NCBI GenBank assembly: GCA_002683405.1
Contig: NYTH01000049.1
Coordinates: 1-60,520, forward strand
Direction: 5' to 3'
Length of the DNA: 60,520 nt
From: Salinisphaeraceae bacterium
Lineage (GTDB): Bacteria > Pseudomonadota > Gammaproteobacteria > Nevskiales > Salinisphaeraceae
Part shown: positions 10,714 to 48,564 of the stretch, in pieces
Numbering within the stretch: the stretch's first letter is position 1
Layout of the letters: each line of letters starts with the position of its first letter
The notes under the pieces: model-generated
The model's database searches: none
Seen by the model: only the letters and a program-made list of their open reading frames with translations
Told to the model about the DNA's origin: nothing
Made by a program: the position numbers and the translations under genes

Positions 10714-10790
10714 GCGCCCGTAGCTCAGTTGGATAGAGCGTGCGGCTACGAACCGCAAGGTCGGGAGTTCGAATCTTCCCGGGCGCGCCA
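10714..10790 (+). tRNA. tRNA-Arg (anticodon ACG)
   Basis: A 77-nt cloverleaf. The acceptor stem GCGCCCG pairs with CGGGCGC. The D arm is GCTC-AGTTGGATA-GAGC, the anticodon arm TGCGG-CTACGAA-CCGCA with ACG, and the T arm GGGAG-TTCGAAT-CTTCC with one G-T pair. The discriminator base is G and the CCA end is encoded. The ACG anticodon (inosine-modified in bacteria) reads CGN Arg codons. The integrase module begins just downstream, so this is the likely insertion target of the island. Confidence 0.97.
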
Positions 10791-42536: not shown

Positions 42537-43760
42537 ATGCTCGAAAAGAAGATGTGTCGGTTACTCGAGTCCTATATAAAAACCGGCACCCTGCAACTGA
42601 GCTTCCCGGACGGCGAAACCCAGAGCATTGGTCAGGGCGAGCCCCATGCCCACATGCTTCTTGAGAACCCCGCAGCATTGCCGCGGATGGCCCGCAATCC
42701 TGATATCAGTATTGGCGAAGCTTACGTGGCGGGTGACTGGCGGCCGGGCGCAGGTGGACTCGAGAAACTATTCGAGCTGTATTACGCCAATGACCGACCC
42801 AGCAGCCCTAGGGGGTTGCGCGCGATGGCGCGGCGAATGAAGGGATTGCTCCAGGAGTTGAACAACAAGACCGAGGCACAGCGGAATATAGCGCGTCACT
42901 ATGACCTTGATATCGACCTTTTTCGCCGCTTTCTTGATCGCAACCTTCATTATTCCTGCGGGTATTTCGAGGCGCCGAATGTCACGCTTGAAGAAGCTCA
43001 GGTGGCCAAATGCAGGCATATCGCTGGCAAGCTCCTGCTCAAGCGAGGGGATCGGGTCTTGGACATCGGTAGCGGCTGGGGCAGCCTGGGCATTTATCTC
43101 GCGCAGGAATTCGCTGTCGAGGTGGTTGGACTCACGCTCTCCGAAGAGCAGTTCAAGGCTTCAAACGCGCGAGCGGTACAGGCGGGCGTAGAAGCCAGGG
43201 CGCAATTTCACTTGCAGGATTACAGAGCCCACCGCGGCACTTACGATGCGGTGGTCAGCGTCGGCATGTTCGAGCATGTGGGGCGTCCGCAATATCAGAC
43301 TTTTTTCGATCATCTCGATCACCTTCTCAAGCCGACCGGTCGAGCACTCATACACACGATTGGCCGAAGCAGCCCACCGTGCGATAGCCAGGGCTGGATG
43401 CAGCGTTATATTTTTCCGGGCGGCTATGTCCCGGCGTTATCAGAAGTGGCACAGCGAATCGAGAAGACCGGCCTGCAAATGTCGGACCTTGAAATCTGGC
43501 GCGTGCATTACGCCGAAACCCTGCGCCACTGGAATCAGCGGTTTCAAAGTCATCGAGGCGATATTGCCGCCAGGCTGGGCGAGCAGTTCTGCCGAATGTG
43601 GGAGTTCTACCTGGTGGGCTCGGCGGCGGTTTTCCGCTGGGGCGATCTGGTTGTCTTCCATCTGCAAATCGCAAAACGCAACGACACCGTACCGCTCACC
43701 CGCAACTATCTCTACGATCCCGCTGCCAACTTCGATCAGCGCTTCGCGGCACTGCCCTAG
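42537..43760 (+). CDS. cfa: cyclopropane-fatty-acyl-phospholipid synthase
   Basis: 407 residues after CAGGGAAG. The N-terminal lipid-binding part (MLENPAALPRMARNPDISIGEAYVAGDW-type segment) is followed by a SAM methyltransferase domain with VLDIGSGWGSLGIYLA near 172-187, GLTLSEEQ, and the C-terminal YIFPGGYVPALSE. It adds a methylene bridge to membrane unsaturated fatty acids from S-adenosylmethionine, a known stationary-phase, acid and osmotic stress response. It belongs to the stress gene group. An in-frame ATG at 42552 is a second possible start. Confidence 0.95.
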   Translation: MLEKKMCRLLESYIKTGTLQLSFPDGETQSIGQGEPHAHMLLENPAALPRMARNPDISIGEAYVAGDWRPGAGGLEKLFELYYANDRPSSPRGLRAMARRMKGLLQELNNKTEAQRNIARHYDLDIDLFRRFLDRNLHYSCGYFEAPNVTLEEAQVAKCRHIAGKLLLKRGDRVLDIGSGWGSLGIYLAQEFAVEVVGLTLSEEQFKASNARAVQAGVEARAQFHLQDYRAHRGTYDAVVSVGMFEHVGRPQYQTFFDHLDHLLKPTGRALIHTIGRSSPPCDSQGWMQRYIFPGGYVPALSEVAQRIEKTGLQMSDLEIWRVHYAETLRHWNQRFQSHRGDIAARLGEQFCRMWEFYLVGSAAVFRWGDLVVFHLQIAKRNDTVPLTRNYLYDPAANFDQRFAALP

Positions 43761-44541: not shown

Positions 44542-45795
44542 TCAGCAGGCTGTTGCAGACTGAATAGCCTCTGCGAGGATATCGAGACCATAATTCAGAT
44601 CCTCAAGCGGACTGATCAGTGGCGGCAAGACTTTCAGGACCTTGTCCTTCTCGCCGGTTGTTTCGATGATCATTCCCCGATCAAAACAGGCGCCAGCGAT
44701 GGCGCTCCCATGGTCTGGGATGCGGCAGTCGAGCCCGTTGAACATGCCTCGGCCCCGTACCTGCGCCTCGAAGCCGTCAGCGTCATCGACGATTTGCTCT
44801 AAGCGTTGTCGAATATGTTGCCCGTGCAGATCCACTCGTCGACTCAGCTCGTCACTGGACCAGAATGTCTCAAGGGCCGCACGCGCGGTTACGAACGCAT
44901 GGTTGTTGCCTCGAAACGTGCCGGTGTGTTCGCCCGCTGCCCAGATGTCCAGGTCAGGCCGGATCAGGACCAAAGCCATCGGAAGCCCCATGCCCGAAAT
45001 CGACTTGGCCAGAGTCACAATATCGGGCTTGATACCGGCTGACTCGAACGAGAAAAACGGACCGGTCCGCCCTACCCCCGCTTGAATGTCGTCAACGATG
45101 AGCAGGATGTCACGCTCTCGGCACACTCTTTCCAGGGCCTGCAGCCAGCGATCGCTGGCTACGTGCACGCCGCCTTCTCCCTGGACCGTCTCGACAATCG
45201 CAGCAGCAGGCTGGTCGATTCCGGAGAATGGATCGTCCAGCAAATGCTCAAGATGCTCTTCGGGCCGTTGGCCATCTGCGAAGTAGCCGTCGAAAGGCAT
45301 GGCGTCGGTAGCGCTCAGCTCCACGCCGGCAGATTGTCTCACTTCACCGTTGCCCGTGACGGCTATGGCGCCCAGTGTCATGCCGTGGAATCCACGGGTG
45401 AAATGCAGGATGCCCGACCGTTGCTTGACCTTCCTGGCCAACTTCAACGCGGCTTCCACCGCGTTGGTGCCAGTGGGGCCGGGAAACTGGACTCGATACT
45501 CGAGATGGCGTGGCTGCAGAACCAGCGCTTCAAACGTTTCCAGAAACTCACGCTTGGCTACCGTGGCCATATCCAGCCCGTGCGCTATGCCACCACCAAG
45601 CAGGTATTCCTGCAGCGCCTCACGCATGACCGGATGGTTATGACCGTAGTTCAGGGCCCCGGCACCGCTGAGGAAATCAAGATACCGCCGACCGCTTACA
45701 TCGCTCATCCAATTGGCTTCCGCGGTGGCGAACGTCGTGGGAAATGACCTCACGTAGCCTCGCACAGACGATTCGAGACGTTGTATCGCTTCCAT
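44542..45795 (-). CDS. ectB: diaminobutyrate aminotransferase, EctB-type
   Basis: 417 residues of the class III PLP aminotransferase family. Landmarks: RYLDFLSGAGALNYGHNHP near 38-55, PGPTGTNAVEAALKLARK near 105-122, GVHVASDRW, LLIVDDIQAG, Lys264 in LAKSISGMGLPMAL as the PLP lysine, and GTFRGNNHAF. These match EctB, which makes L-2,4-diaminobutyrate from aspartate semialdehyde and glutamate for ectoine synthesis. ectA and ectC are not in the window, so this is an orphan copy; it could work with catabolic genes instead of synthesis. Confidence 0.85.
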   Translation of the reverse strand: MEAIQRLESSVRGYVRSFPTTFATAEANWMSDVSGRRYLDFLSGAGALNYGHNHPVMREALQEYLLGGGIAHGLDMATVAKREFLETFEALVLQPRHLEYRVQFPGPTGTNAVEAALKLARKVKQRSGILHFTRGFHGMTLGAIAVTGNGEVRQSAGVELSATDAMPFDGYFADGQRPEEHLEHLLDDPFSGIDQPAAAIVETVQGEGGVHVASDRWLQALERVCRERDILLIVDDIQAGVGRTGPFFSFESAGIKPDIVTLAKSISGMGLPMALVLIRPDLDIWAAGEHTGTFRGNNHAFVTARAALETFWSSDELSRRVDLHGQHIRQRLEQIVDDADGFEAQVRGRGMFNGLDCRIPDHGSAIAGACFDRGMIIETTGEKDKVLKVLPPLISPLEDLNYGLDILAEAIQSATAC

Positions 45796-46194
45796 TGAGC
45801 TCTCTTGTCCGTAAAACAGTGGCGGTTACGGTGCCCAGCAGGCAGGGGGTTCACAATATAGGGCCACCTGTAGCCCGGTCGTGGTCACTGAATAGTGCTT
45901 GGGAAGGCGCGGAGGTGTCTGCGTCGGGTGCGTGCGCACGGTGTTTATCCTGCTTGCGGGGTATGCGCTTGCCCCTAGCCATGCCCAGGCTGTCGCCTAT
46001 GGGCGCAACAGCCTTCACGCCTTAGCCTTGACGCCACAAATTCGCAAGCCGGCTTCCGGGCCGTAAACCAGCCGTTATCAGGCCTTCCGAAGAAAGAGGT
46101 TGTTGAGTGGGGGGTTGGCTTACGGGGACGATTTGCACGCCTTCCGCACAAGCTTGGGCGGCCGATCAATCTCTTTGTGCCGGGATGTCGAGAG

Positions 46195-46272
46195 GTCTCC
46201 TCCGATCCGCCCTTCCTCCCCCAAGGGCGGTCACCTGTTGCCCTGTTCCATGCTGGACAGGGCATTTTTTTT
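46195..46272 (+). ncRNA. candidate small RNA with C-rich anti-Shine-Dalgarno loop
   Basis: On the plus strand, between two minus-strand genes, CTCCTCC at about 46198-46204 precedes a perfect 8-bp hairpin CCGCCCTT/AAGGGCGG (46207-46230) whose 8-nt loop is CCTCCCCC. Next is an 8-bp stem TGCCCTGT/ACAGGGCA (46239-46264) followed by TTTTTTTT. This is a terminator with no plus-strand gene upstream. The C-rich loop could pair with ribosome-binding sites. The 5' end and promoter are not identified, so the start is arbitrary. Confidence 0.5.
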
Positions 46273-46274
46273 CT

Positions 46275-46925
46275 TTATTGGCCGTCGGTCAGCATATCGC
46301 GAGGGTTAAGCTTGCCTGCCGCGACGCACATTTTTACCAGATCCACCACCGTCGCCGCTTCGGTTTTTTCCATCAGATGGCTGCGATGCAGTTCCACCGT
46401 CTTGTACGAGATCCCCAGATCGCGCGCAATATCCTTGTTGGTTTTCCCCGCCACGACGCCGTCGAGCACATCGGCTTCCCGAGGCGTCAACGCCTGGAGT
46501 CGGCGCTGCGTGGCTTCGGTCGCTGCCTTCTCGCGTCGGGTCTCCCGATCCACCCGAATCGCCCTGCGGATGGCCTGGAGCAAATGCTCGTGATCGAAAG
46601 GCTTGACGAAAAAATCCTCGGCGCCGTTTCGCATGGCGCGGACCGCAGTGCTGACGCGACCGTGCGCTGTCAGAAAGATGATGGGTGTCGTGGAATCCAG
46701 CTCACGCAAACGCTCCTGCAGTTCCAGGCCGCTCATATCCGGCATGCGAACATCAAGCAGGATGCACCCGCATCCCAACGGCATTGCTTCCAAAAAAGCC
46801 TGGCAGCCCTCGTACACGCAAACGTTCAACCCGATGGATTCGCATAATGCTTTCAGACTTGCGCTGACATCCGGCTCATCGTCAACAATATAAACAGTGG
46901 GTTCGCTGTTGTGATTTTTGCGCAT
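46275..46925 (-). CDS. FixJ-family response regulator
   Basis: 216 residues. Receiver with acidic pair DDE near 15-17, phosphoacceptor Asp58 in CILLDVRMPDMSG and Lys in FFVKPFDHEHL near 105. LuxR HTH LTPREADVLDGVVAGKTNKDIARDLGISYKTVELHRSHLMEK. About 10 residues follow the HTH. No cognate kinase is adjacent; the hybrid kinase at 56.1 kb is a candidate (inference). The candidate small RNA on the opposite strand ends at its stop codon. Confidence 0.93.
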   Translation of the reverse strand: MRKNHNSEPTVYIVDDEPDVSASLKALCESIGLNVCVYEGCQAFLEAMPLGCGCILLDVRMPDMSGLELQERLRELDSTTPIIFLTAHGRVSTAVRAMRNGAEDFFVKPFDHEHLLQAIRRAIRVDRETRREKAATEATQRRLQALTPREADVLDGVVAGKTNKDIARDLGISYKTVELHRSHLMEKTEAATVVDLVKMCVAAGKLNPRDMLTDGQ

Positions 46926-47400
46926 TGCTGGCCGAGTCTTTCGAAGGCCGCGGATTGTATCGCCCTGCCCGATTGTTCCGTGCTACGGCCTCACCCGGAA
47001 ATGGCTAGGCACTTACCCGTAGCCGTTATCAATCAACTGGCGCGTTTTGCTTGCCCCCTCCCGAAGCACCGGCCGCGGGACCATACAAACCGAGCCAATT
47101 TCGACCAGGCCGTTGGCCGACATCATTCGCGCCAGCGGATTGGCTGTCGCGCGCGGCGATCAAGGACTCTTGCCGGTGTTCAATGGCAGATCAGTCGTCT
47201 TGACAGCGGTGCCTATCACGGCCGATGGATGCCTGGCTATCTCTAATTCATGGAGTCTTGTACGGCAATACCCTGTAAGTCGCTTTCCTGATTGTTCGTC
47301 CCGCATGGGCTTTGTCAAGGTCGCAAAGGTCTGAAACGAAACTCGCCAGGGCCGGCTTCAGACAGAGTTGATCGACACACTCAAGGATGAGGTATCAGGC
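46926..47400. other. gene-free stretch
   Basis: No gene recognised. Two overlapping frames (46911-47246, 47047-47334) have no family features. The final bases (GATGAGGTATCAGGC) form the ribosome site for the alcohol dehydrogenase gene. Confidence 0.4.
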
Positions 47401-48564
47401 ATGAAAGCGCTCACTTGGCACGGCACACATGATGTGCGTCTGGACAACGTCGATGATCCGCAGATTGAGGACAGTCGGGACGCGATCATCAAAGTCACGG
47501 CCACAGCGATATGCGGGTCCGATTTGCACCTGTACAACGGGCTGATGCCCGGGATGGAGCCCGGCGACGTGCTAGGTCACGAATTCATGGGTGAAGTCGT
47601 CGAGACCGGCGCCGCGGTGCCGAATCTGAAGAAGGGTGATCGTGTCGTAGTGCCTTTCACGATCTCCTGCGGTAGCTGCTTTTTCTGCAGCAAGCATCTC
47701 TATTCACTCTGCGATCGCTCAAACCCGAACGCCGATCAGGCGGCCGAGGCCATGGGCCATTCTCCCGCGGCGCTGTTCGGCTATTCGCACCTGCTGGGGG
47801 GCATTTCCGGCGGTCAGGCGGAATATGTCCGGGTGCCTTATGCCGACGTCGGTCCGCTGAAGGTCGAATCGGACTTTAGCGACGAGCAACTGCTCTTTCT
47901 GTCGGACATCTATCCCACGGGCTGGATGAGCGCCGACAACGCAGACATCGAACCCGGCGATACCGTGGCCATATGGGGATGCGGACCGGTGGGCCAGTTT
48001 GCTATTCGCAGCGCCTGGATGCTTGGCGCCGGCCGCGTGATTGCCATCGACAGAATAAGCGAACGGCTTGAGCTGGCCGAAGGCAAGGCAGGCGCCGAAG
48101 TCATCAATTTTGACGAGACTGATGTCTACGAAGCGTTACTTGACATGACACGCGGCTTCGGTCCGGATCGCTGTATTGATGCCGTGGGCGCGGAGGCCCA
48201 TGGCGCCGGTGACCCTGAATACACACCCGCAGCGCCGGATGAATCGCGGCCCAACAGCCCAACGGCGATCAACGTAATGATTCGCTGCTGCCGCAAGGGC
48301 GGGCAGCTGTCGGTGCCGGGGGTCTATACCGACCAGGTGGATGGCTTTTCCCTGAATGCACTTATGAATAAGAGCCTCTCGCTCAAGACCGGGCAAACCC
48401 ACATGCACCGCTACATGAAGCCGCTTTTCAAGACGATCGAAAAGGGCCTCATCGATCCCTCTTTCATCATCACGCACCGACTACCGCTGGCAGAAGCGCC
48501 CGCAGGTTACGAAACATTCAACGCCAAGCAGGATCGATGCGTGAAGGTCGTCATGACGCCGTAA
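47401..48564 (+). CDS. zinc-dependent alcohol dehydrogenase (glutathione-independent type)
   Basis: 387 residues from ATG 47401 ([14 protein letters not shown]). The MDR fold shows catalytic zinc ligands Cys in [12 protein letters not shown] near 38 and HE in LGHEFMGE near 60. The structural-zinc loop is [15 protein letters not shown], and the cofactor motif is [11 protein letters not shown] near 198-207. The long insert with [18 protein letters not shown] is typical of the formaldehyde-dehydrogenase-like branch. It lies 132 bp before the aldehyde dehydrogenase gene, so they may form a two-step oxidation pathway (inference). Confidence 0.88.

Follow-up and report, generated by a model that had tools for sequence, protein, structure and literature searches.

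The described relatives of the element reported here act through unpaired CU- or C-rich stretches that base-pair with ribosome-binding sites (PMC11722255, PMC5688073, PMC3771888). For the double-hairpin RNAs of Burkholderia (ncS03/05/27/62; RF02278, Betaproteobacteria toxic small RNA), 55-80% of the predicted interactions lie near gene starts, and three of these RNAs have an upstream motif in common, as given in a supplementary figure (PMC5688073). The Bordetella RNA S17, which has been described as similar to them (PMC5688073, PMC11722255), has a 67-nt form produced by RNase E; of the 92 genes that are raised, 70 contain complementary sequence at the ribosome site or close to it, and one target was shown directly (PMC11722255). 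Repression by sX13 of Xanthomonas (RF02232) requires both its own C-rich loops and G-rich motifs in the targets (PMC3771888). Moreover, MmgR of Sinorhizobium (RF00519) is repressed by PhaR, which binds the site CAATTGTGCACCGCAGCATTA in its promoter (PMC12542648; the comparison of PhaR/MmgR sites made below also rests on PMC8401924).

The window analysed here is a stretch of 60,520 nucleotides (60.5 kb) from a Salinisphaeraceae bacterium (contig NYTH01000049.1), and it contains a candidate for such an RNA (Table 1). The original prediction had described an orphan plus-strand terminator between two minus-strand genes, a perfect hairpin with a C-rich loop just before it and CTCCTCC in front of the hairpin, and all three features were confirmed. 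Read directly from the plus strand, the element begins with GTCTCCTCC, followed by GAT; the arms of hairpin 1 are CCGCCCTT (46207-46214) and AAGGGCGG (46223-46230), enclosing the loop CCTCCCCC, and TCACCTGT lies between this hairpin and the terminator. We call the terminator an orphan because the nearest likely plus-strand gene upstream, a cyclopropane-synthase-like gene, ends at 43760; the remaining plus-strand ORFs between that gene and the element, most of which overlap minus-strand genes or the element itself, were taken as chance frames. The terminator scan gave two plus-strand sites in 45000-47500, of which the one in the element has the most pairs (10 vs 7), and 2 nt separate the end of its T-run from the stop codon of the response regulator gene.

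Table 1. Features of the element and its neighbours in the 60.5-kb window (R1 and R2, covariance models described in the text)
Feature	Position	Strand	Basis
ectB-type diaminobutyrate transaminase	44542-45795	-	TIGR02407 596.7 bits, above cutoff 552.2
Putative small RNA, short form, 78 nt	46195-46272	+	fold z -5.77; R2 29.8 bits; R1 20.4 bits
GUCUCCUCC tail, predicted single-stranded, complement of SD-like GGAGGAGAC	46195-46203	+	sequence, fold; same tail in order-wide family
Hairpin 1: perfect 8-bp stem, loop CCUCCCCC (46215-46222)	46207-46230	+	sequence, fold, shuffled-window test
Spacer UCACCUGU, aligns in part with the GCACCUU spacer of the family	46231-46238	+	alignments
Intrinsic terminator: hairpin 2 (46239-46264), T8 (46265-46272)	46239-46272	+	terminator scan (10 pairs), fold
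FixJ-type response regulator, convergent neighbour	46275-46925	-	NF006900 217.2 bits (below cutoff 255); PF00072, PF00196

The predicted fold (-32.6 kcal/mol), which leaves the tail and the loop of hairpin 1 unpaired, was not equalled in stability by any of 200 shuffles. A stem of at least 7 bp, with CTCC or CCCC in the loop and T6 within the next 59 nt, occurs once in the real window and in none of 30 dinucleotide-shuffled windows, by a criterion that was chosen after the element was known. In a longer transcript GAGG (46192-46195) is predicted to pair with CCUC (46199-46202) of the anti-SD stretch, so the 5' tail would be free only if the RNA begins or is cut near 46195.

At Rfam gathering scores the window contains only a tRNA, the sole RNA gene at these thresholds (tRNA-Arg (ACG), 10714-10790, plus strand). 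Under loose limits the element matched RF02837 (anti-hemB, 25.5 bits), RF02278 (22.6 bits), sX13 (20.0 bits), ar14 (19.4 bits) and suhB/MmgR (17.8 bits), most of which are small RNAs with C- or CU-rich loops in the alignments. With the Burkholderia RNAs of RF02278 it has in common the UCUCCUCC tail, a CU-rich hairpin 1 and a terminator hairpin 2 with a U-run, and its 78 nt fall within their length of about 57-92 nt. It differs from them in its score (gathering score 50), in the sequence of stem 1 and loop, and in that no promoter was found; moreover, the Burkholderia and Bordetella RNAs have been shown to be expressed, whereas the element is a predicted RNA. Slower growth upon over-expression is a further mark of the RF02278 RNAs. 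The top-scoring RF02837 likewise has a C-rich loop and a terminator, and the match lies below its gathering score of 49.5. C-rich loops are also common to sX13 (gathering score 50), which unlike the element has three stem-loops, measures 115 nt and adjoins polA (PMC3771888), while MmgR (gathering score 41) differs in that the element has no PhaR-type site. The original prediction had likened the element to the CcsR and RsaE RNAs: the idea of a small RNA pairing with SD sequences is retained, whereas by covariance model the closest families are RF02837, RF02278 and a family of its own order, and no family named CcsR or RsaE appears among the Rfam matches to the window or the element (compared by family name). 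Literature matches listed for the tail sequence were to unrelated work only.

The RF02837 matches deserve separate mention. Under loose limits this model gave 38 matches in the own genome; among 20 read by eye most were ordinary terminators, and 13 of 14 control genomes also match. At E <=0.05 there were matches in all 61 genomes searched, 12 of them above the cutoff and several with tandem copies about 200 nt apart; at the same limit six of the 14 control genomes match, none above the cutoff. A separate anti-hemB-like RNA with C5-C6 runs was seen at G000:C47:38475-38568 (L103/L135; 44.8 bits, below the cutoff of 49.5).

The search of the 61 genomes with RF02278 yielded sub-threshold matches only (0/61 over the cutoff), and four of the 14 control genomes match too; under loose limits this model also picks up ordinary terminators. 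About one third of the 30 matches read out have TCTCCTCC, a hairpin and a terminator in common. A pattern selected after these first members had been seen (TCTCCTCC, 35-65 bases, T7) was present in 71 of 85 genomes of the order, against 3 of 85 for the reversed pattern. Most of the pattern matches listed represent one conserved RNA, consisting of GTCTCCTCCAGAAAGGCC, a loop, GCCTTTCTCGCACCTTGCCCCC, a second loop and GGGGGTTTTTTT; a second group among them has GATCCC stems. A second subfamily (GTCTCCTCCAGATCCC...) was also observed in the order (L046, L048, L049, L053, L069, L167, L176), most of its members, L048 excepted, having a TGC..GCA(A/G)CA box at most about 60 nt upstream.

A covariance model, R1, was built from 13 sequences (alignment A5, with a few terminators one column off), the seed being limited to this number because MAFFT misaligned the terminators of mixed subfamilies. 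R1 finds a canonical relative in 81 of 85 genomes of the order (E <=0.01), and matches at least 12 of 369 genomes drawn from the class (E <=0.001, with 14 candidates per genome scored), 8 of them outside the order. The covariance-model alignment A6, which superseded A5, contains two short antisense matches that are not family members.

Covariation was assessed on 84 R1 hits in 67 chosen loci (70 distinct rows). Changes on both sides were found for all 14 pairs; such cells numbered 109, where shuffling gave 23 on average, in an alignment fitted to the structure, which favours covariation; when the partner was slid by one column, paired cells fell from 94.7% to 64-66%. The original prediction had looked to covariation of the two stems across relatives, which is found in the family, whereas no orthologue of the locus itself was found in 145 other genomes. 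CCCC or CTCC in loop 1 is limited to 3 of the 70 distinct rows, all from genomes outside the order (L215, L219, L223). These three, from other orders of the class, have a C-rich first loop (CCCCCTCG, CCTCCCTCG) like that of the window element. Both the order-wide RNA and the window element are unannotated.

Many canonical copies are preceded by TTGACA, about 17 bases and TATACT, and then directly by TGCACYGCAACA. In a set of 77 sites (73 outside this genome and 4 in it, close relatives included, with flanks of up to about 1.5 kb), the box occurs within 220 nt upstream in 56 sites in its loose form and in 46 in its strict form (raw counts). The retrieved flanks of 43 sites encode a PhaR signature peptide, in each case on the same strand and upstream. 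The combination of phaR, a TTGACA/TATA promoter and a TGCANYGCAACA box is frequent in the family, not universal, and the window element is without it. The canonical copy of the own genome, on contig 45 (G000:C45:17163-17230; L300 3163-3231, minus strand; referred to below as the C45 copy) scores 70.2 bits and lies just downstream of phaR, with TTGACA-17-TATAGT and a TGCACTGCAACA box upstream of it; the gene ahead of it has both PhaR domains (PF07879, E 1.2e-29; PF05233, E 7.4e-16).

The box of the canonical copies, a predicted site, resembles the MmgR promoter site introduced above. Its short pattern occurred 40 times in seven genomes, against 8 occurrences of the reversed pattern. TGCANYGCAACA boxes were also seen directly before three phasin-like ORFs, named by eye (L290 on G000:C53, L272 in G018 and L259 in G017). 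Pfam returned Phasin_2 for L272 (E 2.1e-4, 21.9 bits, below the cutoff) and nothing for L290 and L259, and other short-box matches lie inside or before unrelated genes. Since short boxes also fall at unrelated genes and phasin support comes from one of the three ORFs, PhaR control of the canonical RNA is something that we infer. No PhaR-linked RNA of this class was among the literature matches listed, most subscription journals lying outside their scope, and no word beginning with PhaR occurs in the main texts of the Burkholderia (PMC5688073) and Bordetella (PMC11722255) papers. The upstream motif of the three Burkholderia double-hairpin RNAs may be the same box.

The relationship of the window element to this family was examined with R2, a model built from the same 84 R1 hits, none of them from this genome. 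R2 places the element at 46193-46271 (E 1.4e-4 in 60.5 kb). When 20 further 20-kb stretches of the own genome were added (460.5 kb in all), the element was the best of six hits, the next reaching 15.9 bits. It was missed by the genome-wide searches with RF02278, RF02837 and R1, since few candidates pass beyond their initial step; direct scans score it. When the 37 hairpin-plus-T-run segments of the 460.5 kb were compared with the C45 copy, the window element ranked first in similarity (64.3, the next 51.2). The two have in common the TCTCCTCCGA tail, CCTCCCC, a CACC..TTGCCC spacer and the start of the terminator; CCTCCCC spans stem and loop in the C45 copy (loop UCCCC) and lies within hairpin 1 of the window element too. 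The window element differs in having another stem 1 and a wider loop (8 vs 5 nt), and unlike the C45 copy it is not beside phaR and has neither the TTGACA/TATA promoter nor the TGCACTGCAACA box. CTCCTCC, CCTCCCC and T6 occur jointly in 3 of 146 genomes: in the own genome the window element and the C45 copy are the only instances, and the matches in the other two genomes look unlike them by eye.

Two further sites of the genome, picked for a pattern or Rfam match, reach comparable R2 scores (G000:C52:43026-43087, 31.8 bits; G000:C33:102361-102425, 27.7 bits). Neither was accepted as another paralogue: at C52 a stop codon immediately precedes the tail, and at C33 the tail runs over the final codons of an open frame ending in two stops. 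We regard them as gene-end terminators preceded by TCTCCTC, either by chance or as RNAs made from 3' ends. Because like scores are reached at these ordinary gene ends, the R2 score by itself is no proof for the window element; a genome of this size thus yields a few chance sites near its level. Taking the similarities together, we suggest with moderate confidence that the window element arose by duplication within this lineage, the alternative being an independent gain of the C-rich loop.

As far as the searched genomes show, the locus appears to be specific to this genome. A blastn search with the element region gave a match in 1 of 146 genomes, the own one, and there was no DNA-level match of the region among plasmids. 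The ectB-type gene is present in 17 of 17 genomes of the family, with the best matches to the window ectB (65% identity) in G010, G013 and G009. Beside these three closest genes neither such a hairpin nor a T6-run was found within 1.5 kb on either side, and a response regulator was found neither in the ORFs listed nor by signature peptides; the upstream-side neighbour reads by eye as an aldehyde dehydrogenase. The original prediction had named loss of the hairpin beside conserved flanking genes as evidence against it: this applies in part, as neither the hairpin nor the response regulator was found beside these ectB genes. A named-genome scan with the response regulator returned 13 loci, all encoding distant proteins, with no near relative. 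The genome holds two ectB-type genes (G000:C49 44542-45795, in the window, and G000:C36 52749-53984), and two copies were likewise found in each of G009, G010 and G013; the window gene most resembles one member of each pair.

Scanning the plus strand of 45000-47500 for sigma-70 promoters gave no match, and a relaxed search gave one poor match about 390 nt upstream of the element. A PhaR-like box had no match in the 60.5-kb window with up to three mismatches allowed, and control of the window element by PhaR was rejected on this ground. The element would either have lost the promoter and box of the canonical copy or never have had them, and so be expressed under other conditions.

Our reading is that the element is probably a genuine small RNA gene, diverged and lineage-specific, of the CU-rich SD-binding class already described. 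In its specific form, according to which the RNA acts in trans, belongs to the double-hairpin, CU-rich class and most likely arose as a copy of the phaR-linked C45 RNA that then diverged, we hold this view with confidence a little above even. In its favour are the R2 score, the sub-threshold RF02837 and RF02278 matches, the similarity to C45, the joint pattern and the fold z; against it stand the missing orthologue, sigma-70 promoter and PhaR-like box, the scores of C52 and C33, the failure of the genome-wide searches to list the element, and the lack of a target excess. The RNA would be transcribed from the plus strand, starting or being trimmed near 46195 and ending at 46272. As a trans-acting, SD-binding RNA it would offer two pairing strands, the tail and the wide loop, which may base-pair at G-rich ribosome-binding sites and so prevent translation, in the manner of sX13 and S17. 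SD complementarity to the tail among 324 crude gene calls was not above shuffles (at least 6 nt, 17 genes vs a shuffled mean of 13.0; at least 7 nt, 5 vs 3.2), and an enrichment of predicted targets was rejected on this ground. The best single tail match, 10 nt (GGAGGAGACC) before an L318 ORF that resembles an enoyl-CoA hydratase by eye, is a lead only.

The element might instead be a silent relic: a small RNA gene that arose by duplication, kept its hairpins, lost its promoter and is now without function. The absence of a sigma-70 promoter upstream, of a PhaR-like box and of an orthologue is in keeping with this. A relic would be expected to decay, so the perfect stem 1, the nearly perfect terminator stem, the intact T-run and an anti-SD tail identical to that of the conserved family count against it, and we judge it unlikely. 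Somewhat less likely still is a stand-alone terminator that keeps stray plus-strand transcription from entering the response regulator gene in antisense, in which case the C-rich hairpin would be a coincidence. The strength of the terminator and its position at the stop codon of the convergent gene agree with such a role, which leaves the C-rich loop of hairpin 1, the GUCUCCUCC tail and the similarity to C45 unexplained.

The arrangement of TCTCCTC, hairpin and T-run at gene ends at two other sites of the genome, together with plus-strand ORFs that overlap the element, could also point to a plus-strand transcript or a small-protein gene that is unannotated and has its 3' end here. We consider this improbable, as the listed ORFs cross the hairpins or stop well before the tail, none ends just before it, and no sigma-70 promoter was seen. 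A minus-strand element with the G-rich strand as RNA, for example an ectB leader or attenuator located downstream of the response regulator gene, is very improbable: the hairpins do fold on that strand (z -4.18) and both neighbours are minus-strand genes, but no T-run follows either hairpin, the ectB start is about 400 nt away and the family matches are in plus orientation.

Returning to the preferred reading of a diverged duplicate, a broader scenario can be sketched, which we regard as possible and hold only tentatively. The order-wide RNA, controlled by PhaR, would be a counterpart of rhizobial MmgR that ties the translation of many mRNAs to the state of the polyester store, and the window element would be its offspring in one lineage, which escaped from PhaR, moved beside the response regulator and ectB genes and enlarged its loop, so as to carry two ribosome-site mimics under a new signal.

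To conclude, the window element, if expressed, would be a lineage-specific addition to the small RNAs that act broadly on ribosome-binding sites, and an example of such RNAs being duplicated and rewired. The order-wide family, which is strongly covarying, present in 81 of 85 genomes and below Rfam thresholds, may matter more. Its frequent adjacency to phaR and its frequent PhaR-like box make a direct link between carbon storage and the control of translation testable.
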